From Bacteroidales bacterium (GTDB lineage: Bacteria > Bacteroidota > Bacteroidia > Bacteroidales > UBA932), in NCBI GenBank assembly GCA_017480345.1, contig JAFVAU010000002.1, forward strand, positions 1-64,000: a stretch of 64,000 nt of DNA, read 5' to 3'. The position numbers and the translations under genes were made by a program. The notes below the pieces were generated by a model. That model was not told the origin of the DNA. It did not search any database and saw nothing but the letters and a program-made list of their open reading frames with translations. Positions within the stretch are counted from its first letter, which is position 1. Every line of letters starts with the position of its first letter. Positions 16,544 through 58,411 of this stretch are shown here, piece after piece.

Positions 16544-17445
16544 AGCCGGGCGGTCCGGACGGCGGGAACTACGTCGTGCACCCGGAGCCAGGTGGCGCCT
16601 CTTTCCAGCGCAGCCATGTTCAGAACTTGAGTTGCGGGCATCGCTTCTTCGGGAGTGATGCCCAAAACTTTATAAATCATGCTCTTGCGGGACAGGCCCG
16701 CCAATATGGGCCGATGGAAGGCCTGCGAGATTTCATCCAGCCTCCGCAGCAATTCGTAGTTCTGTTCCACCGTCTTGGCAAAGCCGAAGCCCGGGTCCAG
16801 GATCCACTCCCGGATGCCGGCATCGGCCGCCCTCTTCCCGAAATCCCGGAAGTAGCGTATCACCGCGTCCACCACATCGTCGTAGTCCGTAAGGCTCTGC
16901 ATGGTTTCCGGCGTCCCGCGCATGTGCATGGCCACATAGGGGAGTCCCAGCCGTCCCACCGTCTCCAGCATCCGTGAATCCATCCCGCCGGCCGATATGT
17001 CATTCACCACAAACGGGCCGACGGTCTCAAACGCCCTCCGGACAATCTCCGCCCGGTAAGTGTCGATGGAAATAGGAGGAAACTCCCTTCCGGGGGACTC
17101 CGGTCGCTTTGCGACCTCCGGCCCCTCCCACTGTCCGGCTCGTCCGCTTCGCGAACGGCCAGCCAGCGGGCCCCTCCCCCTACCCTCGTCCGGGGGTGGA
17201 CAAGCCCCCGGAAGGGAGTTCCCTCCTATCTCCGTCAGGACGGGCTCCAGGCGGGACCATTCTTCTTCCAGGGAGGGCTGCGGGGCGCCCGGGCGGGTGC
17301 TGCAGGCCCCCAGGTCCACCACATCGGCCCCGTCGGCCCACATCTGACGGATGCGGGAGAGGGCGTCGGCCCTGGATACCTGGCTGCCGGCGTAGAACGA
17401 GTCCGGCGTCAGGTTCAGGATTCCCATGATGTGGATGCTTTGCAT
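16501..17445 (-). CDS. folP: Dihydropteroate synthase with an in-frame palindromic-element insertion
   Basis: 314 residues from MQSIHIMGILNLTPDSFYAG; the open frame upstream is not used. DHPS marks: NLTPDSF (metal/pterin Asn), DLGACSTRPGA, ISIDTYRAEI, VVNDISAGG, and the C-terminal KSMIYKVLG and RVHD. Between EEEWSRLEPVLTEIGG and SIDTYRAE, where normal enzymes have about ten residues, lie about 50 Pro/Gly/Arg-rich residues (about 73-124) encoded by the element at 17072-17229. The insert stays in frame and has no stop. The enzyme joins pABA to dihydropterin pyrophosphate and is normally essential, so it presumably tolerates this loop. It is downstream of the DoxX-like gene (14 bases). Confidence 0.93.
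   Translation of the reverse strand: MQSIHIMGILNLTPDSFYAGSQVSRADALSRIRQMWADGADVVDLGACSTRPGAPQPSLEEEWSRLEPVLTEIGGNSLPGACPPPDEGRGRGPLAGRSRSGRAGQWEGPEVAKRPESPGREFPPISIDTYRAEIVRRAFETVGPFVVNDISAGGMDSRMLETVGRLGLPYVAMHMRGTPETMQSLTDYDDVVDAVIRYFRDFGKRAADAGIREWILDPGFGFAKTVEQNYELLRRLDEISQAFHRPILAGLSRKSMIYKVLGITPEEAMPATQVLNMAALERGATWLRVHDVVPAVRTARLYSKMYTSSPGAEK
17072..17229. repeat. Palindromic insertion element inside folP
   Basis: Arms 17072-17096 and 17205-17229 are 25-base inverted repeats with one mismatch, beginning ATAGGAGG and ending CCGGGGG. The 108-base centre holds a smaller hairpin, GGTCGC-TTT-GCGACC (17107-17121), and GGGAGGGGCC-type runs read on the minus strand. The GTCGC...GCGAC core recurs in the elements at 28199-28317 and 58246-58411. 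No ORF of its own. Confidence 0.85.
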
Positions 17446-17459
17446 GGCTGGAGAGTTGA

Positions 17460-18518
17460 TTACAGCAGGAGCAAAATGGCCAGGAGCCCTACGCAGAAGC
17501 CTTGGGCGGTGAGGCGGCGACGGGTGACGTGGCGGGTGGAAAGGGCCAGCGGGTCTTCGGCGATGTCTTCCCGGAGGGAATCCGGCACATGCGGGGCGCT
17601 CCACTTGTGAATCACCTCCCCGTCATAAAAATAGGAGCCGCCACCGTTGGAACGGTTCAGGGTGATAAGCGTCTTGTAGTCAGAGAAATAAGGAGCCACA
17701 TCGGCCGGCAGGGCCAGGGCTTCCACCTCTTCCCTACTGGCCGATACCAGCAGCAGCGGAAGAGCCTCCGTCCCCTGAAGCAGGCGGTGGTGCTCCGTCA
17801 CGCGGGCCCAATCGGCCTTGGAGACATCATAGACGGAGATAACCACCACCTTGTCCCGGGCGGCCAGTTCATCTTGATATGTGCCCTCCGCGTCAAAGAA
17901 ACTCAGAATGGGGGCGCGGCGGAAATCCTCTTCCTCGGCATTCTCGTCCAGGGAGGCGAAGAGCTGGGAGCCCCAGTTAAAAGGCGTGAAATCCACGATG
18001 GGAAGGTGGGAATTGCAATAGACGGCGCCCAAAATGACCGCGGCAAAGGCTACGCCGGCCGCCACGTTCTTGTGCACCCGCGGCGTACCGAACTCCTTGA
18101 AGGGAGTGAAAGCCACCACAGCCAGCACAATGAGCACCACGTTCTTCCAGAAACTCTGGGCATGGCTCAGATGCACCGCCTGCCCGAAGCAGCCGCAATC
18201 CATGGGCGGGTTGAAAATCCACAGCAGGAGGGTTACCACGGTGAAAACGCCCAGCATGGCATAGGCCACGATGGCCGACAGCTTCCGGAACACCCCGGTA
18301 ATGAGGCCGATACCCACGGCGCACTCCGTCATGGCCAGAGCCACACCCACGGCCTTGGCTGCCCCCGTGAGAAAAGCCAGGTGGAAGAATTTGAAATACT
18401 CCTGAACGATGAGCATAGTGCCCACCGGGTCTACCAGTTTGAGCAGCCCCGAAATCAGGAACACCACCCCCAGGACACCGGCGGTGTGCCGGCGGAAAGT
18501 CTGATAGGAAGGCTTCAT
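17460..18518 (-). CDS. DoxX-like / BT_3928-family membrane protein
   Basis: 352 residues. The first half has four membrane segments of DoxX/MauE type (GVLGVVFLISGLLKLVDPVG, then the conserved NPPMDCGCFGQAV Cys pair). The second half is a soluble domain of about 150 residues, then a last hydrophobic segment at the C terminus (GFCVGLLAILLLL). Such proteins are common next to tmk or tpiA in Bacteroidetes; DoxX/MauE proteins are linked to disulphide or quinone redox, but the role here is not known. It overlaps tmk by four bases. Confidence 0.78.
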   Translation of the reverse strand: MKPSYQTFRRHTAGVLGVVFLISGLLKLVDPVGTMLIVQEYFKFFHLAFLTGAAKAVGVALAMTECAVGIGLITGVFRKLSAIVAYAMLGVFTVVTLLLWIFNPPMDCGCFGQAVHLSHAQSFWKNVVLIVLAVVAFTPFKEFGTPRVHKNVAAGVAFAAVILGAVYCNSHLPIVDFTPFNWGSQLFASLDENAEEEDFRRAPILSFFDAEGTYQDELAARDKVVVISVYDVSKADWARVTEHHRLLQGTEALPLLLVSASREEVEALALPADVAPYFSDYKTLITLNRSNGGGSYFYDGEVIHKWSAPHVPDSLREDIAEDPLALSTRHVTRRRLTAQGFCVGLLAILLLL

Positions 18519-19195
18519 GCAAGGAAAGGGTCTACGGCGGCTTTCACCTTCTGGAAAATGGCCTCCGGAGGCAGCATCTGACCCCAGGCGTCCGAGCAGT
18601 CTATGCGGCGGAACTTGGGATCCCGCTCCGTCTGGGCCACATACATCTCCCGCACCGTCTTCTGGAAGGAGATGGAAGCCTCATGAATGTCCTGGGCGCC
18701 GGAAAGGTACTCCCGGTCCTCCCCTGCCCGCTGGTGCGTAAGGCTCTGCTCCACAAAGCCGATGGGAACGTCCAGAAAGAGATTCAGGTCCGGTACAGGA
18801 AGCTGGAAGTCTCCGTACTCCGTGTTGAAAATCCAGTCCCGGAGCTGCTGACGCTCCTGATCCCCGGCCAACTTGGCGCACTGGTAGGCAATGTTGGAAT
18901 ACACGTAGCGGTCCAGCAGGACGGTTTTCCCCTCCCGGAGCGCCTTCTTCATGAGAGGCGCCGCCCCGTGACGGTCTTCCGCAAACAGGAGGGCCACCAA
19001 CTGGGGGTGCACGGCGTCATTGGAGCCAAAATCCCCCCGCAGGAAACGGGAAATGAGGTCTCCGTAGACAGGGGCGTCATAACGGGGGAAATGGATGTAT
19101 TCCAAAGCCCCCTGGCGCTGAATCAGATATTCTTTGAGCCGCTTGACCTGGGTGGATTTGCCCGCCCCGTCAAGTCCTTCGAGTACAATGAGCAT
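18515..19195 (-). CDS. tmk: Thymidylate kinase
   Basis: 226 residues. P-loop LEGLDGAGKSTQVKRL at the N terminus, the DRY motif in VLLDRYVYSNIAYQ near residue 98, and PDLNLFLDVPIG near residue 136. It phosphorylates dTMP to dTDP. It has its own promoter and leads the operon tmk - DoxX-like - folP. Confidence 0.94.
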   Translation of the reverse strand: MLIVLEGLDGAGKSTQVKRLKEYLIQRQGALEYIHFPRYDAPVYGDLISRFLRGDFGSNDAVHPQLVALLFAEDRHGAAPLMKKALREGKTVLLDRYVYSNIAYQCAKLAGDQERQQLRDWIFNTEYGDFQLPVPDLNLFLDVPIGFVEQSLTHQRAGEDREYLSGAQDIHEASISFQKTVREMYVAQTERDPKFRRIDCSDAWGQMLPPEAIFQKVKAAVDPFLA

Positions 19196-19213
19196 AGTTA
19201 GTGTTAAAGTTTA

Positions 19214-19221
19214 CAAAGATA
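19214..19221 (-). promoter_or_regulatory. -7 box for the tmk operon
   Basis: TATCTTTG on the minus strand, 18 bases upstream of the tmk ATG. Confidence 0.6.
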
Positions 19222-19238
19222 CAAAAAATAGTTGTATC

Positions 19239-20249
19239 TTATTCGCTGCGGCGCGGCGAATAGGCCGTGTTGTTCCGGAGTTTCTCCTCACTCACGGTAG
19301 GGACCACGGGCCGGATGGTGCCGTCGGGGTTGTAGTACAGGTAGTCCACGCAGACGGAACGGTGGAAGCCCGCCGCCCCCGGCACGTCGCCGAAGTTGTG
19401 CAGTCCCAGGTCTCCGGTGTGGTAGAACAGCAGCCAGTCGGCTCCGAACTGCACAATACTGTGGTGATTTGTGCCGCTGCTCACCGGCCCCAGGATAACG
19501 CCCTTGTACTCATAGGGCCCCAGGGGATTATCGGCCATGGCGTAAACAATCTCCGGCTGGTGGCCCGTGAAGGGGCTGTTGCTGTAGGAGAGGTAGTACT
19601 TTCCTTTGTATTTGTGTACCCAGGAGGCCTCGAAGAACTCCACCAGACCCTCGATGATGTGTACCTCGCCGTCGTAGGAAATCATGTCCTCGTTCAGCTT
19701 GATGCAGCAGCAGGTGTTCTGCCCCACGAACATGTAGGCCTGGCCGTCATCGTCAATGAAGACGCAGGGGTCTATGAAGTCGCGGTCGCAGATAACGCCG
19801 GGGGAGTCGATGGAAAGGAGCGGATGCCCCAGCGGGTCTTCGAAGGGGCCCCACGGATGGTCCGACACCGCCACGCCGATATGCCGGGTGTCGGTAGGGA
19901 AGTAGAAATAGTATTTCCCGTTCCGGTAGGCGCAGTCGGGCGCCCAGGCGGCGCGGGTGGCCCAGGTGGTCTGCTCGAAGGGCCGGAAAATCACGCCCCG
20001 GTCTTCAAAGGTCTTCAGATCGGCCGTGACGTAGCAGTGATAGTCATCCATGTCGAAGCCCTGCGCCCCGTCCCGGTCGTGGCTGGGATAGAGGTACAGC
20101 GAGTCTCCGAACACCCGGGCCGATGGATCGGCCGAATACATGTGCGTGATGACGGGATTGCCGCCCAGTTCATGGTGCTGCGCCCGGCCGCAGGAAAGCA
20201 GGGCAAAAAGGAAGGGCAAAAGCCCGAGGAGCATGGTTTTATTTATCAT
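19239..20249 (-). CDS. Glycoside hydrolase family 43 lipoprotein
   Basis: 336 residues with a lipoprotein signal (LPFLFALLSCGR, Cys20). The five-bladed propeller signature is present: Asp base in YSADPSARVFG, WAPDCAYRNGKYYFYFP, pKa-tuning Asp in DRDFIDPCVFIDDDG, and acid Glu in FFEASWVHKYKGKYYLSYS. GH43 enzymes remove arabinose or xylose (sometimes galactose) from plant glycans; subfamily cannot be fixed by eye. It would act at the cell surface or in the periplasm. No susC/susD pair is nearby. It lies between tmk and the Fic gene without tight spacing. Confidence 0.88.
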   Translation of the reverse strand: MINKTMLLGLLPFLFALLSCGRAQHHELGGNPVITHMYSADPSARVFGDSLYLYPSHDRDGAQGFDMDDYHCYVTADLKTFEDRGVIFRPFEQTTWATRAAWAPDCAYRNGKYYFYFPTDTRHIGVAVSDHPWGPFEDPLGHPLLSIDSPGVICDRDFIDPCVFIDDDGQAYMFVGQNTCCCIKLNEDMISYDGEVHIIEGLVEFFEASWVHKYKGKYYLSYSNSPFTGHQPEIVYAMADNPLGPYEYKGVILGPVSSGTNHHSIVQFGADWLLFYHTGDLGLHNFGDVPGAAGFHRSVCVDYLYYNPDGTIRPVVPTVSEEKLRNNTAYSPRRSE

Positions 20250-20277
20250 GGTACCCTGTCACCTTTGTTCCGCGAAA

Positions 20278-21312
20278 TCAGAAATAGGTCTGAACGGCGA
20301 AGTCGAACTGGTCGATGAATATCTTCTTGAAAGCGGAAATGTTGTTTTGCTCGTAGAAAATAAGCATAGCCTTCTTGTAGTCCACTGAGTCAACCGTACG
20401 GAAGGATATCGGGCAGTACTTGTTTGCAATCAGGATGGCGTTGCTGGTGATGCGGGCAGTGCGCTTGTTGCCGTCAGAGAAAGCCTGTATGTAGGACAGG
20501 AGTACCAGGGCCAGCAGGGCTTTTTCGAAAACGTTTTTCTTTCCGTTGATCAGACGGCAGCTGTCTTCAAGGGCTTCGCGGATTTGGTATTCGTTGTCCA
20601 AAGGATAGTAGTTGGTGCCGATGATGCCTACACGGCGTTTACGGATGCCCTTATCCACATTCAATTCCTTGGTGAGCAGCGCGTGGAGTTCCTCTATACG
20701 CCAGATGGAGAGTTCCTTAAGGTATTCAGGATCGGCCAGAACGAAATCGAGCGCGTCCTTATGGTTAAGGAGCATGACGGCTTCTTCCTTTGTCTTGCCG
20801 GAAGCGGTCTGCTTCTCCTTCAGGAGTTTCTCGGTCTCCAGGAGGGAATAAGTATTGCCTTCAATCTGGGATGACTTCCAACTGAGGTCAATGCCCAGGC
20901 GCTCCATCTCCTTGCGGTATTCATTGGCGGTGATACCCTCCAGGTTGCGGGTGAACTGGGCCTGCAGGGCATCAAGACGTTCTTTCTCTTCGGCCGAGAA
21001 TAGGTCCACTTTGGGGAGAATGTCGTTGATAAGGTCGAAGTTGAAGTTGGTCTGGATTTCGCGTTCATCTGTCTCTTTCTGGAAGTAGGTGTCGATGTTC
21101 AGTTCCATCGTCACATGGGCCTGCGGGGACACGTTATAGCGCGTGGCGCGACCCTGGCCGGAGACAATGATAGAGCCGGCCTCCACCAACGAGGCAAGGA
21201 TTCGCTTGACGGTGGCGGGGCTTTCCGAAAGGTTCATGCCGGTCTCTATCTCACTTCTGGAGGAGCCTGGATGGTAGTGCAAGAACTGGAGTATTTCGTT
21301 TTCTCTGGTCAT
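20278..21312 (-). CDS. Fic-family protein with winged-helix N terminus; catalytic His replaced by Gln
   Basis: 344 residues. An N-terminal HTH (about residues 1-60, EILQFLHYHPGSSRSEIETG) is followed by a linker, the class II-type inhibitory motif KSSQIEGNTYS near residue 148 and the Fic core. The active loop reads YIQAFSDGNKRTAR: where AMP-transferring Fic proteins have His (HxFxxGN[G/K]R), the codon at 20485-20487 is CAG (Gln276). The rest of the loop is intact. Without His the protein may be inactive for AMPylation or use other chemistry, or act mainly as a DNA-binding regulator. Repeated CGGCTCAAAT words overlap its promoter, consistent with autoregulation. Gene and flanks are less GC-rich than neighbours, suggesting transfer. 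Confidence 0.85.
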   Translation of the reverse strand: MTRENEILQFLHYHPGSSRSEIETGMNLSESPATVKRILASLVEAGSIIVSGQGRATRYNVSPQAHVTMELNIDTYFQKETDEREIQTNFNFDLINDILPKVDLFSAEEKERLDALQAQFTRNLEGITANEYRKEMERLGIDLSWKSSQIEGNTYSLLETEKLLKEKQTASGKTKEEAVMLLNHKDALDFVLADPEYLKELSIWRIEELHALLTKELNVDKGIRKRRVGIIGTNYYPLDNEYQIREALEDSCRLINGKKNVFEKALLALVLLSYIQAFSDGNKRTARITSNAILIANKYCPISFRTVDSVDYKKAMLIFYEQNNISAFKKIFIDQFDFAVQTYF

Positions 21313-21327
21313 GGTCCTTTTTATTTA

Positions 21328-21408
21328 CGGCTCAAATTTACAAAAAATACGGCTCAAATTCCAAAATTTTGAGCCGATAATCACTTTTTTGAACGGTTAT
21401 TTGAGCCG
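21328..21408. promoter_or_regulatory. Four CGGCTCAAAT operator-like words over the Fic promoter
   Basis: CGGCTCAAAT at 21328-21337 and 21350-21359, and the reverse form at 21367-21376 (TTTTGAGCCG, one change) and 21399-21408 (ATTTGAGCCG). The minus-strand -7 box TAAATTTG (21333-21340) overlaps the first word. Binding by the HTH of the Fic protein is inference. Confidence 0.6.
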
Positions 21409-21508
21409 AATTGCGGGCCGGAAAAATCCATATTTCGATAGCTAGAAGAAGTAAAATAGAACAATCTCCCCTTCTGGACTCGTCTCAAAGATGAGAGTAC
21501 GCTTATAT

Positions 21509-21646
21509 TTATCCGCCGAGTTCGGCAAAACCAGCTTTAAGTTTGTCTACAACATCGTCAACGGTGTGGCCGGCAATCTTCATCATTCGGAGTTTGGGAT
21601 TGTCGCCGAACAATTGTTTGACATCCGTCATGTCAACGGTAATCAT
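21509..21646 (-). CDS. Small ORF of unknown origin, 45 residues
   Basis: From ATG (21644-21646) to TAA (21509-21511): MITVDMTDVKQLFGDNPK at the start and VDDVVDKLKAGFAELGG at the end. The composition looks protein-like (amphipathic helices, Gly-Gly end) and GC is below the window average. It may be a short protein or the tail of a lost gene. No family recognised and no clear promoter. It and the operator array account for the 457 bases between the Fic and GH29 genes; the rest (21409-21508, 21647-21769) shows nothing I can name. Confidence 0.35.
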   Translation of the reverse strand: MITVDMTDVKQLFGDNPKLRMMKIAGHTVDDVVDKLKAGFAELGG

Positions 21647-21769
21647 GCTTGCCTTGGCCAATAGGGGCTGGATGCCTGACCACCGACAAAATGAAGGGTT
21701 CGCTTATTCTTTGAATACTCCTGAAAAGCGCTGATGTTTTGCCTCCGCTGAAATAGCGTATTTTTGTTA

Positions 21770-23158: not shown

Positions 23159-23227
23159 TTTCTTTCTCTGTTTTATTCTGCTAAGATAGTTGTTTTCTCT
23201 TAAAGATACCCACGGGCTATCCCGGAA

Positions 23228-23259
23228 TTTGCATTTCCGGATAATTCTTCGTAAATTTG
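23228..23259 (+). promoter_or_regulatory. Promoter of rimP-nusA-infB
   Basis: TTTG at 23228-23231, a 20-base spacer and TAAATTTG at 23252-23259: a full match to the Bacteroidetes primary-sigma consensus. The leader of about 80 bases to the rimP ATG contains a small palindrome. Confidence 0.65.
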
Positions 23260-23309
23260 CACCCGTGAACGAGATAGAGGACGGCGGTCCCCTATCTTTT
23301 TTTATGAAA

Positions 23310-23334: not shown

Positions 23335-23345
23335 AGAAAAGGACT

Positions 23346-23759: not shown

Positions 23760-23771
23760 TACAAACATAAA

Positions 23772-25065: not shown

Positions 25066-27768
25066 ATGGCAGAAGTAAGACTATCGAAACTGATCAAACA
25101 ATTCAACATCGGGCTTGACACCCTGGTGGACTTCCTCAATTCCCAAGGCGCCGCCATCGAGGACGCCAATCCGAACATCAAGATTTCGGACGAGTTCCTG
25201 CCGGAACTGTACAAGAAGTTCGGCAAGGACTTGGAGCTCAAGGAACAGGCCGAAAAGGTGGACGTGAAGCTTACGGAAATCCTGGACAAGGCTTCCAAGA
25301 AGCAGGACGACGAGACGGAGGAGGACGAGCCCGAGCGCGTGACCGTGATCAAGAGCAACAACCTCTCCCGTACGGTGACGCCCGAGCCGGAACCCGAGCC
25401 GGAACCGGAGCCCGTGGTTGAGCCGGAACCTGAACCCGTCATTCCCGGCCCCGACCGGGAATCTCCTGAGATGGCCGATCAGGTCGGCCATGACGAGGAG
25501 CCAGAACCGGAGCCAGAACCGGAGCCTGAACCGGAACCCGAGCCCCAGCCGGAGCCCGAGGTGCCTTCCACCCCGACCCCAGTGGAAGAACCTGCTGCCG
25601 CTCCCGGCCCCGAGGCTGCCGCTCCCTTCAAGGTGCTTGGCAAGATTGATCTCTCCCAGTTTGACCCCAAGAAGGGCAAGAAGCGTGAGCGCATCAAGGC
25701 CGCCGGCTCCCAGAAAGTGGACGTGACCAAGGTCCAGGCCGAGAAAGCCCCCAAGAAAAACGACAACAAGCGTAAGGACAACGCCGCCCAGCCCTCCGGA
25801 AAGGGCCGCAAGAAGGGTGACCGCTTCAAGCCTGCCATGACGGAAGCCGAGCAGGAGGAGATGCAGAAGGAGATCCAGAAGCAGGTTAAGGAGACGTACG
25901 CCCGCATGAACGAGAGCACCAAGAACAACTTCGGCGCCAAGCACCGCAAGGAGAAGCGTGAGATAGCCGCCATCCGCTCCCAGGAGGAGATGGAGGCCGC
26001 AGCAGCGGAGAACAAGGTGCTCAAGGTAACGGAATTCGTAACCGTAAACGACCTGGCCACCCTGATGAACAATACCCCCGTGGTGAAGGTTATCGGCGCC
26101 TGCATGTCCCTGGGTATGATGGTGTCCATCAATCAGCGTCTGGATGCCGAAACCCTGGTGCTGGTGGCCGAGGAATTCGGTTACAAGGTGGAATTCGTGA
26201 CCGCCGAACTCACGGAAGAGATTCAGCAGCAGGAACCCGACCGGGAAGAAGACCTGGTGGAGCGTCCTCCGGTGATTACCGTGATGGGCCACGTGGACCA
26301 TGGTAAGACCTCCCTGCTGGACAACATCCGCAATTCCCACGTGATTGCCGGTGAGGCCGGCGGCATTACCCAGCACATTGGCGCCTACAGCGTCACGCTG
26401 GACAGCGGCCGACACATCACCTTCCTGGATACCCCGGGTCACGAGGCATTCACCGCCATGCGTGCCCGCGGTGCCCAGATGACGGACCTGGCCATCATCA
26501 TCGTGGCGGCTGATGACGCAGTCATGCCCCAGACCAAGGAAGCCATCGCCCATGCACAGGCCGCCGGCGTTCCCATGGTCTTCGCCATCAACAAGATTGA
26601 TAAACCGGGCGCCAATGCCGATACCATCCGCCGTCAGCTCTCCGAGATGAACATCCTGGTGGAAGACTGGGGCGGCAAATACCAGTGCCAGGAAATATCG
26701 GCCAAGAAGGGCATCAATGTGGACAAGCTGCTGGAGAAGGTGCTCTTTGAAACGGACCTGCTGGAGCTCAAGGCCAATCCCAACAAGCTGGGTAGCGGCG
26801 CCGTTATTGAAAGCTCCCTGGACAAGGGCCGCGGTTATCTGGCCACGGTGCTGGTGCAGGACGGCACGGTGAATGTGGGCGACGTAATCATCTCCGGAAG
26901 CTACTACGGCCGAGTGAAAGCCATGTACAACGAGCGTGGCCAGAAGGTGGAAAGCGCCGGACCTTCCACGCCGGTGTCCCTGCTGGGCCTGAACGGAGCC
27001 CCCGCCGCCGGTGAGAAGTTCAACATCATGGCCGATGAAAAAGAGGCCAAGAGCATTGCCCAGCGCCGTGAGCAGCTCATCCGCATCCAGGGCATCAAGA
27101 CGCAGAAGCACCTCACCCTGGAAGAGATCGGCCGCCGTATCGCCATTGGCAACTTCAAGGAGCTCAACGTGATTGTGAAGGGCGACGTGGACGGCTCTGT
27201 GGAAGCCCTGTCCGACTCCCTTATAAAGCTCTCCACCGAAGAGGTGCGCGTGAATGTGATTCACAAGGCCGTGGGTGCCATCAGCGAGTCTGACGTGCTG
27301 CTGGCCGAAGCCTCCGACGCCGTGATCATCGGCTTCCAGGTGCGTCCCAGCGCCGAAGCCCGCCGCGCCGCCGAGAAGGAGGGCATCGAAATCCGCCTCT
27401 ACTCCGTGATTTACGACTGTATCAACGAGGTGAAGGAAGGTATCGAGGGCATGCTGGAGCCGGAGAAGAAGGAAGAAGTGACCGCCACGGCCGAGGTGAA
27501 GCAGACCTTCAAGATTTCCAAGGTGGGCACCATCGCGGGCTGCCTGGTGAAGGAAGGAAAACTCACCGCCAAGGCCGATGTCCGCCTCATCCGGGACGGC
27601 ATCGTGGTGTACACCGGTTCCCTGTCTTCCCTCCAGAGGGGCAAGGACCAGGCCAAGGAAGTGCCTGCCGGCATGGAATGCGGCTGCGGACTGGAGCGTT
27701 ACAACGACATCCACCCCGGAGACATCATCGAAGCCTTCCAGATTGTGGAAATCAAACGGAGCTTATAA
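25066..27768 (+). CDS. infB: Translation initiation factor IF-2
   Basis: 900 residues. The N-terminal IF2 domain ([21 protein letters not shown]) is followed by a long linker of Glu-Pro repeats (about residues 105-185). A 57-bp palindromic element inserts 19 codons (about 125-143, starting [12 protein letters not shown]) in that linker without shifting frame. The G domain starts with [14 protein letters not shown] near residue 408, then DTPGHEAF and NKIDKP; the C-terminal domains ([20 protein letters not shown]) complete it. It brings fMet-tRNA to the 30S subunit. The last six bases overlap the convergent WbqC-family gene. Confidence 0.96.
25438..25494. repeat. 57-bp palindromic element inside infB
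   Basis: The outer ends GTCAT and ATGAC are inverted. Two hairpins lie side by side: ATTCCCGG/CCGGGAAT (25441-25462) and ATGGCCGA-TCAG-GTCGGCCAT (25471-25491). The length is exactly 19 codons. The first hairpin belongs to the same unit as those at 23310 and 34923. Confidence 0.8.
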
Positions 27769-28524
27769 AGCTTTAAGCCATAGGATGCTGTCTGGGCCTT
27801 CATTGAAAAGGAGGTCCAGACAGCTCATTTTAGGGGTGAAGCCGCCCATCCGGTCCCGGAAAACCTGGTAATAGGGCTTGTCCAGGCCCATGTCCGGGAG
27901 GATGCTGTCGGCCTTCTTGGGATGGAGGGTGTAGCGGAAGTCATCGGCCGGGCCCTCGCCCGGAGCCGCGAATTCGGTGGTAGGGGAGAGCTCGCAGGCG
28001 ATGCCGGTCTTCTCCAGGAGGAAAAGGATGGTGGAAAGATTCAGCTCCCAAAGCGTCCGGGGCCGCGCATCCAGCAGGGCAAAAACCTCGTCCCGGTAGT
28101 ACTCATAATAGGCCGATGTCTCATAGGCCGTGTCCAGCGCCCGCCGCGTCCGCACCACCCACGGGGTGGAATAGTCCACCAGGATGGAACATATATTCAA
28201 GGGGGAAGTGCCACTTTCTGGAACATTTGCCCGTACAGAGCCACCCCGAAAATTAGAAATTTCCGGGGACCCCGGTGTGTCGCGAAGCGACGTGGAAGAA
28301 AGTGGCACTTCCCCCTTAAGGGAATGTTTTACCGGCACCTGGAGCATTTGGACGCCGTCTCCCGCCAGGATGTAGCAGCGGTTGCGGTAACTCTGCTTCT
28401 GGTAGTTCTCGCAGGCTTCCAGGAACACGTGGGACGGCAAAACCCTGTCCGGGGACAGGGTCATATCTCTGGCCAGGAGCGACAGATAGCTCACCGGCGG
28501 AAAGTATGCGGTGGAGAGCAGCAC
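27763..28524 (-). CDS. WbqC-family protein with an in-frame palindromic insertion
   Basis: 253 residues starting with GTG at 28522-28524, directly after the lpxA stop (TAGTG overlap). WbqC-like marks are [60 protein letters not shown] and the [14 protein letters not shown] segment. WbqC proteins occur in O-antigen loci with an uncertain biosynthetic role. Between the VPVKHSLK and LVDYSTPW segments sit about 40 residues (70-109) from the element at 28199-28317. The gene closes the lpx operon and overlaps infB convergently. Confidence 0.83.
28199..28317. repeat. Palindromic insertion element inside the WbqC-family gene
   Basis: Perfect 21-base arms at 28199-28219 and 28297-28317, starting AAGGGGGAAGTGCC and ending ACTTTCT. 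The 77-base centre holds the GTCGC-GAA-GCGAC hairpin (28279-28291) and CCCCGAAAATT...AATTTCCGGGG pairing. No stop in the gene's frame. Confidence 0.87.
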
Positions 28525-32797: not shown

Positions 32798-33862
32798 AGC
32801 AATTTTACTCGAAATCCGAAAAATCCGTCGAGTGCTTGCCGTCACTTTTACGCTCTCGTCAATGCAGTACCCGGCAACGGCCAGTACATGATGGGGGTCA
32901 GAGGCCGCTTTAAAGAGGGGAATGCCCCCCTTTTCGCCAGCCGGTATGTGGTGGTCTGTGAACCAGTCCTGCATCTTCTTCCGTCCGGGCGCGCCCAGCG
33001 GCTTGATCCAGTCTCCGCTCTCCCATTTTCCTTCCACCAATTCTCCCGCCTTGTCCGCATCCAGGATGAGCATCCCCTGCGGCTGCTTCACCGCCTGTGT
33101 CCCGTCCCATGGTTCTTCGGAGAGGATGGCGACTGTCCGGGGGCAAAAATACCCCTTTTCGCTCCCGTTATGTTTCTTTTTGTCATTTGGGGGGCAAATT
33201 GCCCTGTTTTCGCCCCCGGCAAGCTCTTCGGCAAAGCGTTCCATGTCCCGGTTCAGGGTTTGCACGAAACGGGGGTTGATTTCCCGGAACACGGGAAAAA
33301 CCAGGTTGCGGAGCTTGTTCCGCTTGAAGTCATTCTCCGCATTGGTGCGGTCTTCCCTCCAGGAGAGCCCCTGCTCCCGGGCAAAAGCCTCGATCTCCTC
33401 CCGCGTCATGCCCAGCAAGGGCCGATGCAGGGGAACGTCGGCATACTCCGGGTCGGGGATAAAGCCATAGGCCTTCATGCCGGTGAGGCCCCTCAGGCCG
33501 GTTCCGCGGAGGAGGTTCAGCAGCAGCGTTTCCGCGTTGTCGTTGGCATTGTGCGCCACCGCCACGCCTTCATAGCCGTTTTCCCGGCAAAGCTGCCCGA
33601 ACCAATGGTAGCGCAGCCGGCGGGCCGCCATCTCCACGCTGATTCCATTGGCCGACGCAAACGCTTGCGTATCAAAGCGTTTGAAATGGATGGGAATCCC
33701 GTACTTCCGGGCCCAGTCCGTCACAAAAGCTTCGTCAGCGTCGCTCTCCGCACCCCGGAGCCCGAAATTGCAGTGGGCAATGGCAAAAGGCCCGCCATCC
33801 AAGCGGACCTTTTGAGCCAGGCACATGGAGTCGATGCCTCCGCTGACAGCCACCAGCAACAT
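32795..33862 (-). CDS. tilS: tRNA(Ile)-lysidine synthase with an inserted palindromic segment
   Basis: 355 residues. The PP-loop ATP-binding motif VAVSGGIDSMCL begins almost at the N terminus, and HCNFGLRG, VAHNANDNAETLLLNLLRGTGLRGL and RPLLGMTREEIEAFA follow as in TilS. It makes lysidine at tRNA-Ile C34, an essential step. Residues about 215-242 (Cys/Lys-rich, around ICPPNDKKKHNGSEKGYFC) come from the element at 33138-33219 and are not typical of the family. The C-terminal domain is short. Its ATG follows the upstream gene's stop by one base. Confidence 0.9.
   Translation of the reverse strand: MLLVAVSGGIDSMCLAQKVRLDGGPFAIAHCNFGLRGAESDADEAFVTDWARKYGIPIHFKRFDTQAFASANGISVEMAARRLRYHWFGQLCRENGYEGVAVAHNANDNAETLLLNLLRGTGLRGLTGMKAYGFIPDPEYADVPLHRPLLGMTREEIEAFAREQGLSWREDRTNAENDFKRNKLRNLVFPVFREINPRFVQTLNRDMERFAEELAGGENRAICPPNDKKKHNGSEKGYFCPRTVAILSEEPWDGTQAVKQPQGMLILDADKAGELVEGKWESGDWIKPLGAPGRKKMQDWFTDHHIPAGEKGGIPLFKAASDPHHVLAVAGYCIDESVKVTASTRRIFRISSKIA
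33138..33219. repeat. Palindromic insertion inside tilS
   Basis: Outer arms CCGGGGGC (33138-33145) and GCCCCCGG (33212-33219) continue imperfectly inward (CAAAAATACCCC against the complement of GGGCAAATTGCCC). The 82 bases are in frame for tilS. It lacks the GTCGC hairpin of the larger elements, so it may be a different type. Confidence 0.6.
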
Positions 33863-49412: not shown

Positions 49413-49426
49413 AGCATATTTTTCCG

Positions 49427-52236: not shown

Positions 52237-52253
52237 TTTTATAAAAAAATTAT

Positions 52254-52261
52254 TAACTTTG
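52254..52261 (+). promoter_or_regulatory. -7 box for the TonB-C lipoprotein
   Basis: TAACTTTG, 42 bases before the ATG at 52304. Confidence 0.55.
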
Positions 52262-52303
52262 CGGCCGAAAACAGAGAACTGTTTACTTTTAATTTATAGT
52301 ATC

Positions 52304-52891: not shown

Positions 52892-52909
52892 TGGGTTGAA
52901 AGATACAAA

Positions 52910-52943
52910 AAAACCGGGACGTCCCATCGGGCGCCCCGGTTTT
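52910..52943. terminator. Bidirectional terminator between convergent genes
   Basis: AAAACCGGG (52910-52918) pairs with CCCGGTTTT (52935-52943) with A- and T-runs outside, between the TonB-C lipoprotein and the convergent sugar-isomerase gene. Confidence 0.75.
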
Positions 52944-52959
52944 CTTTATGTGCGGCAGC

Positions 52960-53841
52960 CTACTTGGCGTAGGTGGCCTTCACGAAGGGTGCATCCAGGA
53001 GGTAGTCTGCGCTCTCGCGGAAGCTGCGGCGGATGTCCTCGTAGCTGTAGCGTTCAATCTCCACCACGAAGTTCTCCAGCCCGGCCACATCGGCATTCTT
53101 GAAGATGGCGTCGAAGCCCACCATGCCGCTTTGGCCCACTTCCCATTCATCCTTGATGTGAAGCATCTTGAACCGGCCCGGATAACGCTTGAAATAATCT
53201 ACCGGCGAGGCCTTCCCAATCACGGCCCAGTACACATCCATCTGGAAGAAGACCAGCGAGGGATCCGTGTGCTGGAGGAGGTAGTCGTACATGACCTCTC
53301 CCTCCACCTTCTCGAACTCGTAGGCGTGGTTGTGGTAGCCGTACTTGAGGCCGGCCGCCTGGCAGCGGCGGCCCACCTCGTTCAGGTAATCGCAATAGAC
53401 CTGAAGGTGATGCAGGTTCTTCTGGAGGCCCATCCAGGGCGTCACCAGATACTCCATGCCGGCTTTCACGTGGTCTTCGATGCACTTGTCCCACCAGGCC
53501 AGGGCGGCGGTGAGGTCCTCGCTGGCAAGTTCCTCCTCGGACAGGCCGCGGCTCACGTGGGCGCTCAGGACCTTCATTCCGGCCGCCTCCACCTTCTGCT
53601 TGAACACCTCGGGCTGGTCTCCGTAGATGAGTCCGTCGCCATAGCTGGCGGTTTCCACGGCCGTATAGCCCATATCGGCCATCTCCTTCAGGATATCGGC
53701 ATAATTGTCATGATTCAGAATGCTGCGGGCCGAATACATCTGCACGCAAAGATCCTTTTTCACAGACGCCGGTTCCCCGGAAGAGCAGGACGGAAGGAAG
53801 GCCATGAGGGCGAGTGCAAGGAATAAAATGCTTCTTCTCAT
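52960..53841 (-). CDS. Xylose-isomerase-like TIM-barrel lipoprotein (sugar isomerase/epimerase family)
   Basis: 293 residues with a lipoprotein signal (ALALMAFLPSCSSG, Cys19). AP-endonuclease-2/xylose-isomerase-like barrel marks: CVQMYSARSILNHDNY, MGYTAVETASYGDGL, YGYHNHAYEFEK (metal His/Glu) and FQMDVYWAVIGK. In the 3-keto-glycoside pathway described for gut Bacteroidetes, a protein of this fold works with the DUF1080 enzyme on keto-sugars; its exact reaction here is unknown. Last gene of the four-gene operon; four bases after the DUF1080 gene. Confidence 0.85.
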   Translation of the reverse strand: MRRSILFLALALMAFLPSCSSGEPASVKKDLCVQMYSARSILNHDNYADILKEMADMGYTAVETASYGDGLIYGDQPEVFKQKVEAAGMKVLSAHVSRGLSEEELASEDLTAALAWWDKCIEDHVKAGMEYLVTPWMGLQKNLHHLQVYCDYLNEVGRRCQAAGLKYGYHNHAYEFEKVEGEVMYDYLLQHTDPSLVFFQMDVYWAVIGKASPVDYFKRYPGRFKMLHIKDEWEVGQSGMVGFDAIFKNADVAGLENFVVEIERYSYEDIRRSFRESADYLLDAPFVKATYAK

Positions 53842-53845
53842 GCGC

Positions 53846-54691
53846 TTAGTCCATCACTTTGATGCGGATGTTGCGGTACCACACATCGTCACCGTGGTCC
53901 TGCAGGCCGATATAGCCCTCGTGGTTCTCTCCGCCGCAGTTGTTCAGGAGCTCGAAGGCGAGGGGCCAGTCCTTCTGGGAGAACTTGGAGGCCTGGAGCA
54001 TGTCGGTCCACTGCTGGGTCCACAGATGGTATTCCAGCACCTTCACATCGTTCTGGAAGTGCACCACGGTGCCCTTGTAGACCAGGATCTTCACCTTGTT
54101 CCACTCACCGTAAGGGTTCTGGTTCTGCGGAACGGCGGGAATCATGTCGTACAGGGAGGCGGACTGGCGGTTGCCGTCCACACCCAGCAGGGCGTCCGGA
54201 TGGTTGGCATTGTCCAGCACCTGGTACTCGGGAGCGGAGATGTAGATGGGCTCGTAACGCTCGTTGCCGTTCTCGTCCTTGGTGGTCACTTCCTTGGCCA
54301 GGTAGAAGATACCGGAATTGCCGCCCTTGGAAATCTTCCATTCCATCTCCAGGGTGAAATTCTTGAACTGGTGGGCGAAGATGACGTCTCCGCCTTCGCC
54401 GGTCTGGCCTTCGCCGCTGCCGGTGCCGCTGAACTTGAGGGCGCCTTCGTCCATGCTCCAGCGCTGGGGAAGGGCTTCCTTTCCGTAGCCGCGCCAACCG
54501 TTGGTGGAGCTGCCGTCAAAAAGGACGATATAGCCGTCTTCATCTACAGGGAAGGTGGAAAGGTCCACCTGGGCGGCCTCCACTACCTTGTACTCGGGAA
54601 CGGCGCCGTTTTTCTTGTTTCCTTGGTTGCCACAGGAAAGGGCGGTAACCATCATTGCAGCCATGGCTGTCAGTGCTAAGATTTTTTTCAT
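53846..54691 (-). CDS. DUF1080 (3-keto-glycoside hydrolase/lyase) lipoprotein
   Basis: 281 residues with a lipoprotein signal (AAMMVTALSCGNQ, Cys20). The DUF1080 jelly-roll signature is clear: GYIVLFDGSSTNGWRGYG, FKNFTLEMEWKISKGGNSGIFY, YEPIYISAPEYQVLDN and GGENHEGYIGLQDHGDDVWYR. DUF1080 proteins cleave glycosides already oxidised at C3, by elimination or hydrolysis. The two Gfo/Idh oxidoreductases upstream are the natural source of such substrates. Confidence 0.9.
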   Translation of the reverse strand: MKKILALTAMAAMMVTALSCGNQGNKKNGAVPEYKVVEAAQVDLSTFPVDEDGYIVLFDGSSTNGWRGYGKEALPQRWSMDEGALKFSGTGSGEGQTGEGGDVIFAHQFKNFTLEMEWKISKGGNSGIFYLAKEVTTKDENGNERYEPIYISAPEYQVLDNANHPDALLGVDGNRQSASLYDMIPAVPQNQNPYGEWNKVKILVYKGTVVHFQNDVKVLEYHLWTQQWTDMLQASKFSQKDWPLAFELLNNCGGENHEGYIGLQDHGDDVWYRNIRIKVMD

Positions 54692-54709
54692 ATCGTTTGT
54701 GTGTTGAGA

Positions 54710-56188
54710 TTACGGAAGTTCGGGGAGCGTCCAGCCCTTGCGGAAGACGGGCTTGATGAGCTCTCTGGCAAACTGGTTGGCATCTACCGGATCGGTATAG
54801 ACATTCTGGAAGGTGGGATGGCCGTCCGTGATGGAGAATCCGTCATGGATCATGGTGCGGATGGTGGCACCCTCGGGGATGTTGGTAAAGCGCATGTTCT
54901 CGCCGTCCCATTCCAGTTCCTGATTCAGGCCCTGCAGACGCACGGCCACAACGCCCATGGCCACCATCTCGTTGAAGGGGCCGGCCTCGGCGAAGTCGGA
55001 GGCGCTGGGGGTGCGGAACTCCGGGTCTTCCTTGCAGGCGCGGATCCAGTCCTGCTGGTGGTTCAGCTTGATTTCGCGGTGGATGTGCGGAACCTCGGGA
55101 TTGCGGCCCGACAGGAGGTACGGGTTCACACCATAGCAGCCACAGATGAGGGTGTCCTTGGTTCCGTAGAAGATGACGGCTCCGCCGTTGTCATTCAGGT
55201 TCTTGCCGGCGGGCAGACCTTCGGGGCGGTCCGGGAGGATGCCGCCGTCGGTCCAGGTTACCGTAACCTCGGGCATGGCCACCTTGGGCATGTTGTCACG
55301 GGCGGGGAATACGAAGCGCACCTTCTCGGCCTGCGGGCAGGATTCCGTGAGAAGGGCGGTGGAGCTGCCCTGTACCTTGGTGGGATAGCCCAGCTTCAGG
55401 GCCTTGAACACGGGATGCAGGATGTGGCAGGCCATGTCTCCCAGCGCGCCGGTACCGAAGTCCCACCAGCCGCGGAAGTTCCACGGGGTGTAGATGGAGT
55501 GGTAGGGCCGATAGGGGGCCGGTCCCAGGAACAGATCCCAGTCCAGGGTCTTGGGAACCTTCTCCGCCTTGGTGGGACGCTCCAGGCCCTGGGGCCAGAT
55601 GGGACGGTCCGTGAAGGCTTCCACGCGGGTCACTTCACCAATCTCACCGTTCCAGATCCAGTCGCAGATCTTGCGGACACCTTCTCCGGAAGCGCCCTGG
55701 TTGCCCATCTGGGTGGCCACTTTGTACTTGGCGGCCAGCTTGGTGAGCAGGCGGGACTCATAGACGGTGCGGGTGAGGGGCTTCTCGCAGTAGACATGCT
55801 TGCCGGCCTGGATGGCGGCGGCGGCAATGATGGCGTGGGTGTGGTCTGCGGTGGCCACCATCACGGCATCGGCCTCGGGCAGGAGTTCGTCAAACATGAC
55901 CCTCCAGTCCTTGTAACGCTTGGCCTGGGGATAACGCTCGAACACGTGGGCGGCGTATTTCCAGTCCACGTCGCACAGGCCGATGATATCCTCGGTCTCC
56001 AGTTCTCTGAGCACACCGGCACCTCGGCCGCCGATACCTACGCCCAGGATTTTGAGCTTTCTTCCCAGCGGGGCGGGAGCGGTCTTCTTGCCTTCTTTGG
56101 CGAAGAGTTGGCCGGGCATGACAGAGAGCCCAACGGCAGCGGCGGTTCCTGCTTTGAGGAACGATCTTCTTGACATTTCTTTACTCAT
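54710..56188 (-). CDS. Tat-exported Gfo/Idh/MocA oxidoreductase, candidate glycoside 3-dehydrogenase
   Basis: 492 residues. Twin-arginine signal MSRRSFLKAGTAAAVGL at the N terminus (start could also be the second Met). NAD-binding GVGIGGRGAGVL near residue 50 and the EKPLTRT motif (ADHTHAIIAAAAIQAGKHVY before it) define the family. Export of a folded, cofactor-loaded enzyme through Tat is typical of this subgroup. Proposed role: oxidation of a glycoside C3 hydroxyl in the periplasm (inference from operon). Thirteen bases after the first oxidoreductase. Confidence 0.9.
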   Translation of the reverse strand: MSKEMSRRSFLKAGTAAAVGLSVMPGQLFAKEGKKTAPAPLGRKLKILGVGIGGRGAGVLRELETEDIIGLCDVDWKYAAHVFERYPQAKRYKDWRVMFDELLPEADAVMVATADHTHAIIAAAAIQAGKHVYCEKPLTRTVYESRLLTKLAAKYKVATQMGNQGASGEGVRKICDWIWNGEIGEVTRVEAFTDRPIWPQGLERPTKAEKVPKTLDWDLFLGPAPYRPYHSIYTPWNFRGWWDFGTGALGDMACHILHPVFKALKLGYPTKVQGSSTALLTESCPQAEKVRFVFPARDNMPKVAMPEVTVTWTDGGILPDRPEGLPAGKNLNDNGGAVIFYGTKDTLICGCYGVNPYLLSGRNPEVPHIHREIKLNHQQDWIRACKEDPEFRTPSASDFAEAGPFNEMVAMGVVAVRLQGLNQELEWDGENMRFTNIPEGATIRTMIHDGFSITDGHPTFQNVYTDPVDANQFARELIKPVFRKGWTLPELP

Positions 56189-56201
56189 ATCAGTGTTTTG
56201 T

Positions 56202-57281
56202 TTAGTGGTTTAGTCTTTTCTTCAAAAGGCCGTAGCCGTCTGTCATCTGGCGGCGGCGTTCCCGGATCTGCACCAGTTCCTCATCCGTTCCTTTAACCGG
56301 CATTTCGTGCAAGCCGGCATCCTCAAGCATCTTCCAGGCCACTTCCGAGGCCTCTGCCGCATCCCTGAATTCCGGCATGGAAGGGTCCCTGCGGCCGGAA
56401 AGGATACTCCCTGCCATCTGGCTGCACAGCTCGGGCAGGTTCTTCTCTCCGAAGGGCTTGTCCAGGATTACCGTGCTGTCCGTTCCTCTCATTTCCACAT
56501 GGGCCGTCTTGAAATCGTGGGTCAGGTGGATGACCCCGCGGGTGCCGATGAGGTCCACGTACGCGTGATGGGTCTGGTCCTTGGAAAGCTGTCCGTACAC
56601 GAAGCCCTGCGTAATGTCAAAGACCACGCCGTTTTCAAACGTCCCGTGGCTGTTAATCCACCAGGGGTCTTTGTAGTCCCACATCCGGATGCCCTGTGCG
56701 TTCCAGGTCTTATAGGGGGCGCCGGCATACCAGCGTGCAATGTCCACATAGTGCATGCCGCAGTCGTGGAAGCAGGGGCCCTCGTACTCGTGCCCTTCTC
56801 CCGGCGCCAGGCCCGGGGTCATGTGGCAGATGCGCACGATGGCCAGCTCTCCAATCTGTCCGGACTCCACGAAGGCCTTCATCTCCCGGTGGTACCAGGA
56901 ATTCCTGAGGTACAGGTTCACGGCCGAAAACTGGGGCACGGAGGCCGACAGGGCCACCAATTCCTTCTCCTGCCCGGCAGAAATGCCTATGGGTTTTTCG
57001 GAAATAACATGCTTGCCGGCGGCAAAACAGCGTTCAATCTGCTCTTTGCGGGAATCGGCCAGGGCGCAGAGGATGACCAGCTGAATCTCAGGGTCTGCGT
57101 AAATCTGTTCGGGATTGTCCGTTACCAGGGCCTCCGGGGCATTCTGGCGCGCCCATTCCCTTTGGGCGGAGGAGGCATCGCAAATCATCTTCAGCTCCAG
57201 GTCTTCATTGTCAAGAATGGCGTTCCTGTAAAACGCTCCCATCCTGCCGTATCCAATGATTGCTGTCTTGATGCCTGTCAT
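56202..57281 (-). CDS. Cytoplasmic Gfo/Idh/MocA oxidoreductase
   Basis: 359 residues, no signal peptide. NAD site TAIIGYGRMGAFYRNAIL, catalytic-site EKPIGISAGQEKELV near residue 97, and HDCGMHYVDIARWYAG near residue 175. First gene of the operon, with a promoter box upstream. Being cytoplasmic, it may reduce or oxidise imported 3-keto-sugars, the complement of the Tat-exported paralogue; substrate unknown. Confidence 0.9.
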   Translation of the reverse strand: MTGIKTAIIGYGRMGAFYRNAILDNEDLELKMICDASSAQREWARQNAPEALVTDNPEQIYADPEIQLVILCALADSRKEQIERCFAAGKHVISEKPIGISAGQEKELVALSASVPQFSAVNLYLRNSWYHREMKAFVESGQIGELAIVRICHMTPGLAPGEGHEYEGPCFHDCGMHYVDIARWYAGAPYKTWNAQGIRMWDYKDPWWINSHGTFENGVVFDITQGFVYGQLSKDQTHHAYVDLIGTRGVIHLTHDFKTAHVEMRGTDSTVILDKPFGEKNLPELCSQMAGSILSGRRDPSMPEFRDAAEASEVAWKMLEDAGLHEMPVKGTDEELVQIRERRRQMTDGYGLLKKRLNH

Positions 57282-57308
57282 TTTTGTTATTCCTATGTGG
57301 ATTTCCTA

Positions 57309-57316
57309 CAAATATA
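57309..57316 (-). promoter_or_regulatory. -7 box for the 3-keto-glycoside operon
   Basis: TATATTTG on the minus strand, 27 bases before the ATG at 57281. Confidence 0.5.
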
Positions 57317-57333
57317 GGAAAAAACTGCCGGAA

Positions 57334-58227
57334 TTAAAACAATTTTCCCGTGTTGAATTTACTGGCCAGTCCCTGCAGTTCATCTGTGGTGGCCGGCCTG
57401 TTCAGGGCTTCTTTCTTCTCTTTCTGGAACTTAGCCTTCAAATTGGCGAACTGCCGCTTGGTGTCTAAGGTGAAGTCTCCGCCCTCGATCCAGGCAAAAT
57501 AGGAAGGCTCCGTCTCCCACACTTCCCGGGCCGTCTTTCCCTTGTGCTTGCCGAAGCTCACGACGGGCTCTCCGCCCTCTCCCATGAGCAGCCTTCCGGC
57601 ATAATCCACCGTGCGGGGCCTTCCGGCCACGGTGGAAAGGAAGGAAACGTCGTTCTTGAGTTTGTCCGGATACATGTCCAGCTGGCCCTTGAGCACCTCG
57701 TAGGTGGCCACGGTGTCCGCCTCGGCGGTATGGGCGTTCTCAAAGTCCTCCCCGCCGCAGTAGAAGCGGTAGGCGGCCTTGAGGTTGCGCGGCTCCATGT
57801 AATGGTAGATGTTCTGCACGTCCACCATCAGCTTGGCGTGGAGGTCTATGTCAATGTCCTTGTGCAGGTACAGGCGCACCCGCTCAATTTCCTCGGCCAG
57901 CATGGGAAGGTCGAACTTGGCGGAGTTGAAGCCCGCCAGGTCTGCATCTGCGAGCCAATCCACCACCTCGTCCACGCTGTCGCAGAAGCGGGGGCATCCG
58001 GCCAGGTCCTCGTCCTTGATTCCATTGACGGCCGATGCCTGCGGCGCAATGGGATACTGCCGCTGGGCCACGTAGTCCCAGGGCTTGAACCGCCAAGTCT
58101 TGATGCGCGTCTCCCCTCCGGGAAACACCTTCACAAAACTCAGCTCACAAATACAGTCAGTGGCAATATTCAATCCCGTGCTCTCAATATCAAAGAACAG
58201 CAACGGTCTCTCTAAATTCAGTTCCAT
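57334..58227 (-). CDS. DnaQ-like 3'-5' exonuclease with an extra C-terminal module
   Basis: 297 residues from MELNLERPLLFFDIESTGLN (six codons shorter than the open frame). DEDDh residues: FFDIESTG, GFNSAKFDLP near residue 104 and HTAEADTVATYE near residue 168. After the nuclease domain a small module begins at VVSFGKHKGKTAREV near residue 228 (DUF3820-like) and ends in a Lys-rich tail. It probably trims DNA or RNA ends; not the PolIII epsilon subunit itself as it lies outside dnaE context. A 166-bp palindromic element separates it from dnaN. Confidence 0.87.
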   Translation of the reverse strand: MELNLERPLLFFDIESTGLNIATDCICELSFVKVFPGGETRIKTWRFKPWDYVAQRQYPIAPQASAVNGIKDEDLAGCPRFCDSVDEVVDWLADADLAGFNSAKFDLPMLAEEIERVRLYLHKDIDIDLHAKLMVDVQNIYHYMEPRNLKAAYRFYCGGEDFENAHTAEADTVATYEVLKGQLDMYPDKLKNDVSFLSTVAGRPRTVDYAGRLLMGEGGEPVVSFGKHKGKTAREVWETEPSYFAWIEGGDFTLDTKRQFANLKAKFQKEKKEALNRPATTDELQGLASKFNTGKLF

Positions 58228-58245
58228 AACAAAAGATACTAGCAT

Positions 58246-58411
58246 GAATCAGGGTGTCTCTTTCTGAACCCATGGCCACCCTCGGCCGTGCCCCTTTAGG
58301 GCAAATGTCCCTTGGGGGACAATAGGGGGACAAAATTCTCCCGGCAGGGAGGGGCCCATCGAAGATGGGAGGGGTCGCGGAGCGACGGTTCAGAAAGAGA
58401 CACCCTGATTC
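58246..58411. repeat. Intergenic palindromic element between the exonuclease gene and dnaN
   Basis: Perfect 25-base arms at 58246-58270 and 58387-58411, starting GAATCAGGGTGTC and ending CTGAACC. The 116-base centre has CCCTTTAGGG, GTCCCTTGGGGGAC, GGGAGGGGCCCATCGAAG and the GTCGC-GGA-GCGAC hairpin (58376-58388) shared with the elements in folP and the WbqC gene. It fills nearly all of the 191-base gap, eight bases short of the dnaN stop, so the dnaN transcript would fold it as a very long hairpin. Confidence 0.88.

Follow-up and report, generated by a model that had tools for sequence, protein, structure and literature searches.

How can a palindrome that sits inside a conserved gene keep its two arms complementary when the arm sequence itself differs from copy to copy? 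The question is raised by three elements in a stretch of 64,000 nucleotides (the window; positions 1 to 64,000 of contig JAFVAU010000002.1, assembly GCA_017480345.1) from a Bacteroidales gut bacterium of the UBA932 lineage. An initial annotation described them as palindromes with differing arms and a shared GTCGC-NNN-GCGAC hairpin, and likened them to the Rickettsial palindromic elements (RPEs), an apt comparison. I found that they belong to multi-copy families, here called F1 and F2, lying in frame in unrelated conserved genes. They are probably RPE-like palindromic elements in tolerant protein loops, in which template switching between the arms keeps the pairing and flips the core. The annotation had recognized a multi-copy in-frame family in conserved genes; the mover that it suggested, a transposase of the kind associated with repetitive extragenic palindromes (REPs), known as RAYT, found no support, and the inversion of the core, its genome-specific sequence and the reuse of the same loops had escaped it.

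Three elements and their relatives

All three elements lie where they had been placed, each with its internal hairpin. The element in folP occupies positions 17072..17229 of the plus strand (the gene is on the minus strand), with the hairpin GTCGC-TTT-GCGAC at 17103..17115. The element in a WbqC-family gene lies on the minus strand at 28199..28317 (GTCGC-TTC-GCGAC at 28279..28291), and the third is intergenic, also on the minus strand, at 58246..58411 (GTCGC-TCC-GCGAC at 58374..58386). The arms are fully paired in the WbqC element (21/21) and the intergenic one (25/25); those in folP are imperfect, a 32-nt arm pair being 91% complementary. Both coding insertions keep the reading frame and bring no stop codon. 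Orthologues lacking the insert, which the annotation had proposed to look for, exist for both genes. When 30 WbqC loci were compared, the F1-type insert was present in this genome and one other (G027) and absent from 28, one of which (L062) has an unrelated longer insert. Among 30 folP loci, a long insert was found in three (this genome, G036 and G037) and an F2-like one in L110; most of the remaining loci have a short linker, and L090 did not cover the site.

Are there further copies, as the annotation had expected? The 13-mer GTCGC-NNN-GCGAC occurs 26 times in the whole genome (2.22 Mb in 46 contigs, with the window on contig C31), against 4 occurrences of a reversed control pattern. Each of the 26 hairpins is within or abuts an inverted repeat that measures 74-166 bp and has arms of 18-30 nt, and in all 26 the arms match within the copy and differ between copies. 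Once the copies were oriented by the hairpin, two dominant core families emerged. The F1 unit is 78 nt or 26 codons long and consists of a 20-nt arm, a 38-nt core and the complementary 20-nt arm; the core reads TCCGC-GTCGC-TTC-GCGAC-CC-TGTA-CGGG-CAAAT-GCTCC and folds, by prediction, as a small three-way junction. F2 is longer and has additional covarying hairpins: an arm ending in AAACC, the GTCGC hairpin as in F1, CCCTCCC and a variable hairpin are followed by GGGCCCCTCCCTCTTA, a GCC-GAGGGT-GGC hairpin and the complementary arm. The WbqC element is an F1L, an F1 whose core is enlarged internally by 39 nt, and another F1L copy lies in a class I tRNA synthetase gene that, on my reading, may be ileS. 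The intergenic element is of the F2 type with extra core sequence and perfect 25-nt arms, and the longer folP element has a third core type of its own. Two of the 26 copies (L022 and L024, on contigs C29 and C40) are F2 elements of 119 bp that do not differ from each other, even in their near flanks, and represent either a duplication or an assembly overlap.

In a genus sample of 101 genomes, the F1 core was found in 10 with two mismatches allowed and F2 in 42 with an exact pattern, the control pattern having none among the matches listed. Across 84,980 species genomes, the F1 pattern matched 103 stretches, 102 of which carry a Bacteroidales or Bacteroidia title and one a Fibrobacter title; the named samples with F1 matches are mostly ruminant. 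The Fibrobacter-titled contig (CAMHDS01, L385) has Bacteroidales-like flanks (about 73-76% identity to L010 and relatives) and is perhaps misplaced. Viral contigs, searched with a phage vehicle in mind, gave 0 matches of the F1 core. The 3′ halves of F1 were also listed in six genomes in a search for longer forms with an internal gene. A literature search of partial coverage found no description of such Bacteroidales elements.

Arms that change in pairs

The arms of F1 are almost unique to each copy: 131 units have 126 distinct 20-nt arms. Watson-Crick pairing between the arms was 0.903 within elements and 0.487 between them. In a covariation alignment of 45 F1 units chosen from 65, 98.2% of the cells are paired (77.0% in shuffles), and the covariation score is 0.607 against 0.180, a value that none of 500 shuffles reached. 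All 20 arm pairs, as well as the adjoining GC/GC pair, show a two-sided change somewhere in the alignment. The small helices of the F1 core barely vary and are uninformative either way. Of 40 F2 units, 39 could be parsed; in every one of these, the two outer bases of the last hairpin (P4) are complementary, in many combinations, and the inner pair is complementary too. The annotation had left the choice between covarying arms and distinct subfamilies; both are true together, the subfamilies being those of the core.

The pairing does not end sharply with the arm. It declines between base pairs 19 and 25, and 29 of 99 well-paired units extend at least 3 bp past base pair 20, where 1.5 would be expected. 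The arm consensus is weak, roughly CGGAAG...CCCTTTCC, and arm identity between elements is about 0.51; the terminal inverted repeats common to all copies that define a miniature inverted-repeat transposable element are therefore not seen. The idea that a single arm is itself palindromic was dropped, the measure being only slightly above that of shuffles (3.3 vs 2.9, standard deviation 0.9).

Insertion in frame

By my sorting according to open frames, 17 of the 26 copies are inside genes and 9 are outside or uncertain. A family match was obtained for 14 hosts: folP, WbqC, the class I tRNA synthetase, RibF, a MiaB-type radical SAM enzyme, MetG, TyrA, FabD, RsmH, UvrA, an MFS transporter, AtpB, RnfG and DnaX. 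Three hosts are unnamed; NCBIfam gave no match for the genes at L007 and L010 and only weak matches for L023. A palindromic repeat in frame in unrelated genes, as described for RPEs, is thus what was found.

Flanks were sufficient for analysis in 113 F1 units, of which 49 have no clear frame and 64 have one. The frame agrees on both sides in 53 of the 64, and in 52 of these 53 the left edge of the core falls on a codon boundary (30/31 on the gene strand, 22/22 on the opposite strand). Since the F1 core contains no stop codon in any of the six frames, the elements are not forced into a single phase in each orientation; they prefer it, perhaps because the resulting peptide is milder. The in-frame core peptides predicted from the sequence are SASLRDPVRANAP and GAFARTGSRSDAE. 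In 140 orthologous pairs, the left offset and the right offset are each multiples of 3 in 139. In TyrA, the net gain over three relatives is 78 nt (87 vs 9 nt), or 26 codons, which is exactly one F1 unit.

Inversion and apparent overwriting at orthologous sites

What happens to an element after species diverge? Flanks of F1 sites were compared in 133 orthologous pairs forming 24 site clusters, and offsets in the 140 pairs mentioned above; all these comparisons are between species. In all five bins of flank identity, two-sided arm changes (1.8-6.7 per 20 pairs) exceeded one-sided ones (1.2-1.9): 3.1 vs 1.3 at 85-90% identity (n = 18) and 6.7 vs 1.6 at 65-75% (n = 44). The decay of arm pairing after insertion that would be expected of an RPE was not seen. 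The 29-nt core was on average 96-100% identical between orthologous sites, a figure partly conditioned by the search patterns.

The core is often inverted. This was the case in 59 of the 133 pairs, and both orientations occur in 15 of the 24 clusters. In MetG of this genome and two relatives, the flanks are 86-87% identical, 19-20 of the 20 arm nucleotides are the same, and the 29-nt core is identical but inverted. Among 24 pairs with flanks at least 85% identical, the core lies at exactly the same place in 16, of which 9 are inverted and 5 have changed arms. DNA inversion between inverted repeats is therefore present here, between species only. Of the 140 pairs, 30 have no offset on either side, 11 have equal offsets, 5 opposite ones and 41 an offset on one side only, and the remaining 53 are unequal in some other way. 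In L266 compared with L276, codons adjacent to the left arm have apparently, on my reading, been replaced by the complement of the right flank, the length staying the same.

The loops of this genome were also compared at 17 sites with its nearest relative, Reindeer_2_mag_152 (G250). At 7 of the 17, both genomes have an intact F1 or F1L, two of them inverted and several with nearly identical arms; the WbqC site of the relative has an 80-nt F1 at the same place with one compensated arm change. The other sites have one F2 (RibF), two remnants (folP, a deletion remnant, and RsmH), one core-less palindrome, five repeats of the CGTC/TGTC type and one other insert. These results suggest that the loops are reused and that the elements persist, decay and get replaced. 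The long folP inserts of G036 and G037 are related to that of this genome. Of 30 UvrA loci, three including this genome have F1 (one inverted), several have F2 or shortened F2-like palindromes, some have other palindromes, and many have short linkers. A given protein loop can contain one palindromic repeat in one species and another in the next.

Several side observations concern these loops. In relatives (L176, L171, L153, L201, L401 and others), the repeat TGTCATTCTGAGCGAAGCGAAGAATCT (peptide CHSERSEES) occupies these loops in IleS, MiaB-type and other genes, again in frame; in this genome it adjoins the F2 element in RibF. Two species (L141, L142) have clusters of GTGGACCAGGTCCA palindromes in the UvrA loop, similar to the hairpins close to the RAYT match in L295. 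At the FabD-type site of G250 (L337), an intact F1 is accompanied by a further tandem copy that is degenerate.

No clean pre-insertion site that would reveal a target duplication was found at close range, where relatives show remnants and other repeats. At RsmH, one arm (22/22 nt) is present in a sister genome (G207) and its partner is missing, the site in G250 carries degenerate remnants of F1, and more distant relatives lack the loop. An inverted target duplication, in which a native arm is copied at insertion, was suggested by WbqC, folP and RsmH. It was set aside: the native side varies relative to the core, the one-arm sites may be deletion remnants, and such a step, though possible, is not needed.

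Core types of each genome

The core follows the genome rather than the site. Core identity is 0.991 within and 0.957 between genomes, which none of 300 label shuffles reached, and the arms show no such effect (0.519 vs 0.507). In 61 orthologous pairs across genomes with different majority types, 111 of the 122 cores have the type of their own genome, 1 that of the partner and 10 neither; the 122 cores represent 58 distinct elements, of which 52 have their own genome's type. Twelve labelled units of this genome have the same core, and one more (L293) differs from it by one mismatch. In F2, the letters left free by the pattern are alike in 7/7 (G088), 5/5 (G080) and 3/3 (G016) among the matches listed. 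Search patterns had less influence on the sets that were collected with the 13-14 nt hairpin or by way of the flanks. A genome-specific core may point to a co-evolving or homogenizing factor, which is a candidate only.

Origin of the pairing and of the inversion

Paired arms and a flipped core could both come from template switching between the arms, the reading that I favour. During replication, the polymerase would switch template between the two arms. One arm would be copied onto its partner, so that pairing is restored as the sequence drifts, and copying would sometimes run on into host codons. The switch may also invert the loop, here the core, and deletion between the arms would leave core-less palindromes. 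In the available text of PMC8604942, arm homogenization and spacer inversion, seen there in coding DNA, are signatures of template switching in inverted repeats, and that of PMC8794818 states that the process can create stems and keep them paired. Both signatures occur together in these elements, in place and in frame.

Several points weigh against this reading. The offsets are one-sided or unequal in 94 of the 140 pairs, which a simple conversion in place does not explain. In MetG, this genome and G250 have 93.7% identical flanks, but both arms have been replaced (8/20 alike), which is a jump and not a drift. The frame disagrees in 11 of the 64 clear F1 units; for three of these (L016, L017, L324), the host gene or its orthologue ends just past the insert. 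The spacer inversions reported in yeast concern spacers of 2-5 nt in the part of PMC8604942 that was available, shorter than the 38-nt core. All evidence of change comes from comparisons between species; no event was seen within a strain or laboratory population. The conservation of the F1 core depends in large part on the patterns with which it was searched for, and arm homogenization does not explain a conserved, genome-specific core.

Candidates for what keeps the core uniform are ectopic conversion, re-insertion and a co-evolving core-reading protein. It is possible, and I suggest it only tentatively, that the elements are self-renewing mobile hairpins without fixed arms, whose palindrome is rewritten by replication over host codons and whose small folded core is kept constant in each genome by a core-reading system that spreads it or makes it uniform across sites. 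If so, the core would be a parasite of template switching, and basic enzymes would keep gaining invertible non-native peptides.

Could selection on a fold produce the same pattern? A structured RNA or single-stranded DNA, with arms kept paired by compensatory substitutions and the core as a ligand or protein site, would account for a conserved core with covarying F1 helices, for the complementarity of F2 P4, for MiaB-type cores that are vertically kept with site-specific P3 hairpins, and for genome-specific cores, as a co-evolving factor predicts. However, F1 occurs in both orientations to the gene (31 same and 22 opposite of 53) and its core inverts at a site; thus, a single mRNA structure cannot be the selected target. 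The pairing also continues into host codons. An Rfam search of the window gave 0 matches at the gathering threshold; with permissive settings, four loci had 11 weak matches between them, none of which came near its gathering score (best E 0.031). I consider this explanation unlikely, and the elements are a warning that perfect covariation need not imply RNA selection.

Insertion could also have happened separately in every lineage, into the same tolerant loops and with new arms each time; such a scheme, with hot spots, random orientation and genome-specific masters, would fit the own-genome core types (111 of 122, with 1 of the partner's), the near 50:50 orientation, the offsets that differ in most distant pairs, the different repeats held by the loops of different species and the single arm in RsmH of G207. 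Yet in close pairs the position is exactly retained and the arms are unchanged or altered in part, 7 of the 17 sites are intact in both this genome and G250, several with near-identical arms, and one-arm sites may be deletion remnants, as the RsmH remains of G250 and the distant relatives without the loop illustrate. Insertion afresh in each lineage is therefore doubtful.

An intragenic inverton, in which a site-specific recombinase flips the core as a phase switch, would explain frequent inversion between short inverted repeats, and such switches are common in gut Bacteroidales as far as the available source text goes. The arms, where the enzyme's site would be expected, share only a weak consensus and are distinct in 126 of 131 units, and since the F1 core is open in six frames, either orientation gives a full-length protein in housekeeping genes. 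A phase switch is very improbable here.

REPIN-like elements moved by a RAYT (Y1 transposase) can practically be dismissed: RAYT genes are present in 78 of the 101 genomes, including 10/10 F1-positive ones, but also in 68/91 F1-negative ones, a small difference, and no F1 or F2 motif was found in nine RAYT loci of about 3 kb, including the three from this genome. Inverted repeats were listed for six of these loci, and in 4 of the 6 the match has other hairpins to its left and right (the gene was read only in L290). The RAYT that the annotation had placed in the window was not found; Y1_Tnp (PF01797) matches of this genome lie on contigs C4, C8 and C10 and none on C31. The RAYT-type matches at L290, L294, L295 and L296 are flanked by pairs of similar hairpins (e.g. 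CTCGTTC..GAACGAG) that are locus-specific and unlike F1 and F2.

More than 100 homologous hairpins with fixed centres and free arms amount to a natural experiment that can show how coding DNA in bacteria retains its palindromes, and template switching becomes measurable from comparative data. They also indicate that housekeeping proteins tolerate repeated, invertible in-frame inserts.

Comparison with known systems

The CGTC- and GTAG-tagged REPs are also short palindromes in open reading frames of Bacteroidetes, and the CGTC type has no linked transposase in the accessible portion of PMC3733652. Their stem is 8-9 bp long and they end in a tag, whereas F1 has an arm of at least 20 nt that differs in nearly every copy. 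On reading, neither F1 nor F2 has the terminal CGTC, TGTC or CCTC tag and the 8-9 bp stem starting with AT. In contrast, the hairpins in infB do fit. The annotation had counted small palindromes in infB and tilS with the same family; those in infB (25437..25495, plus strand) are a head-to-head pair of CGTC-tagged, REP-like hairpins lying in frame, by eye of the different, known kind in the excerpt of PMC3733652, with an IF-2 match for the host, and share the habitat with the elements described here. In tilS there is one short palindrome only, at 33658..33683 (perfect arms of at least 9 nt, loops up to 60).

In nematomorph mitochondria, perfect inverted repeats are kept in coding DNA and template switching has been considered; from the part of PMC6649704 at hand, they apparently lack a common mobile core, and they are not bacterial. 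The work on template switching between arms (PMC8604942, PMC8794818), as far as its available text goes, deals with a mutation mechanism, and a repeated element with a conserved core is not its subject.

RPEs are, like F1 and F2, palindromic, about 100-150 bp long, grouped in several families and found in frame in unrelated conserved genes, according to the available portions of PMC10969869 and PMC6649704; the latter, citing Claverie and Ogata (2003), reports that they lose repeat identity over time. They belong to another phylum and are likened here by description. F1 and F2 differ from them in that the arms change yet stay paired, the core inverts and the cores are genome-specific. Thus, F1 and F2 are filed as a new variety among in-frame palindromic elements, with RPEs as the nearest known system.

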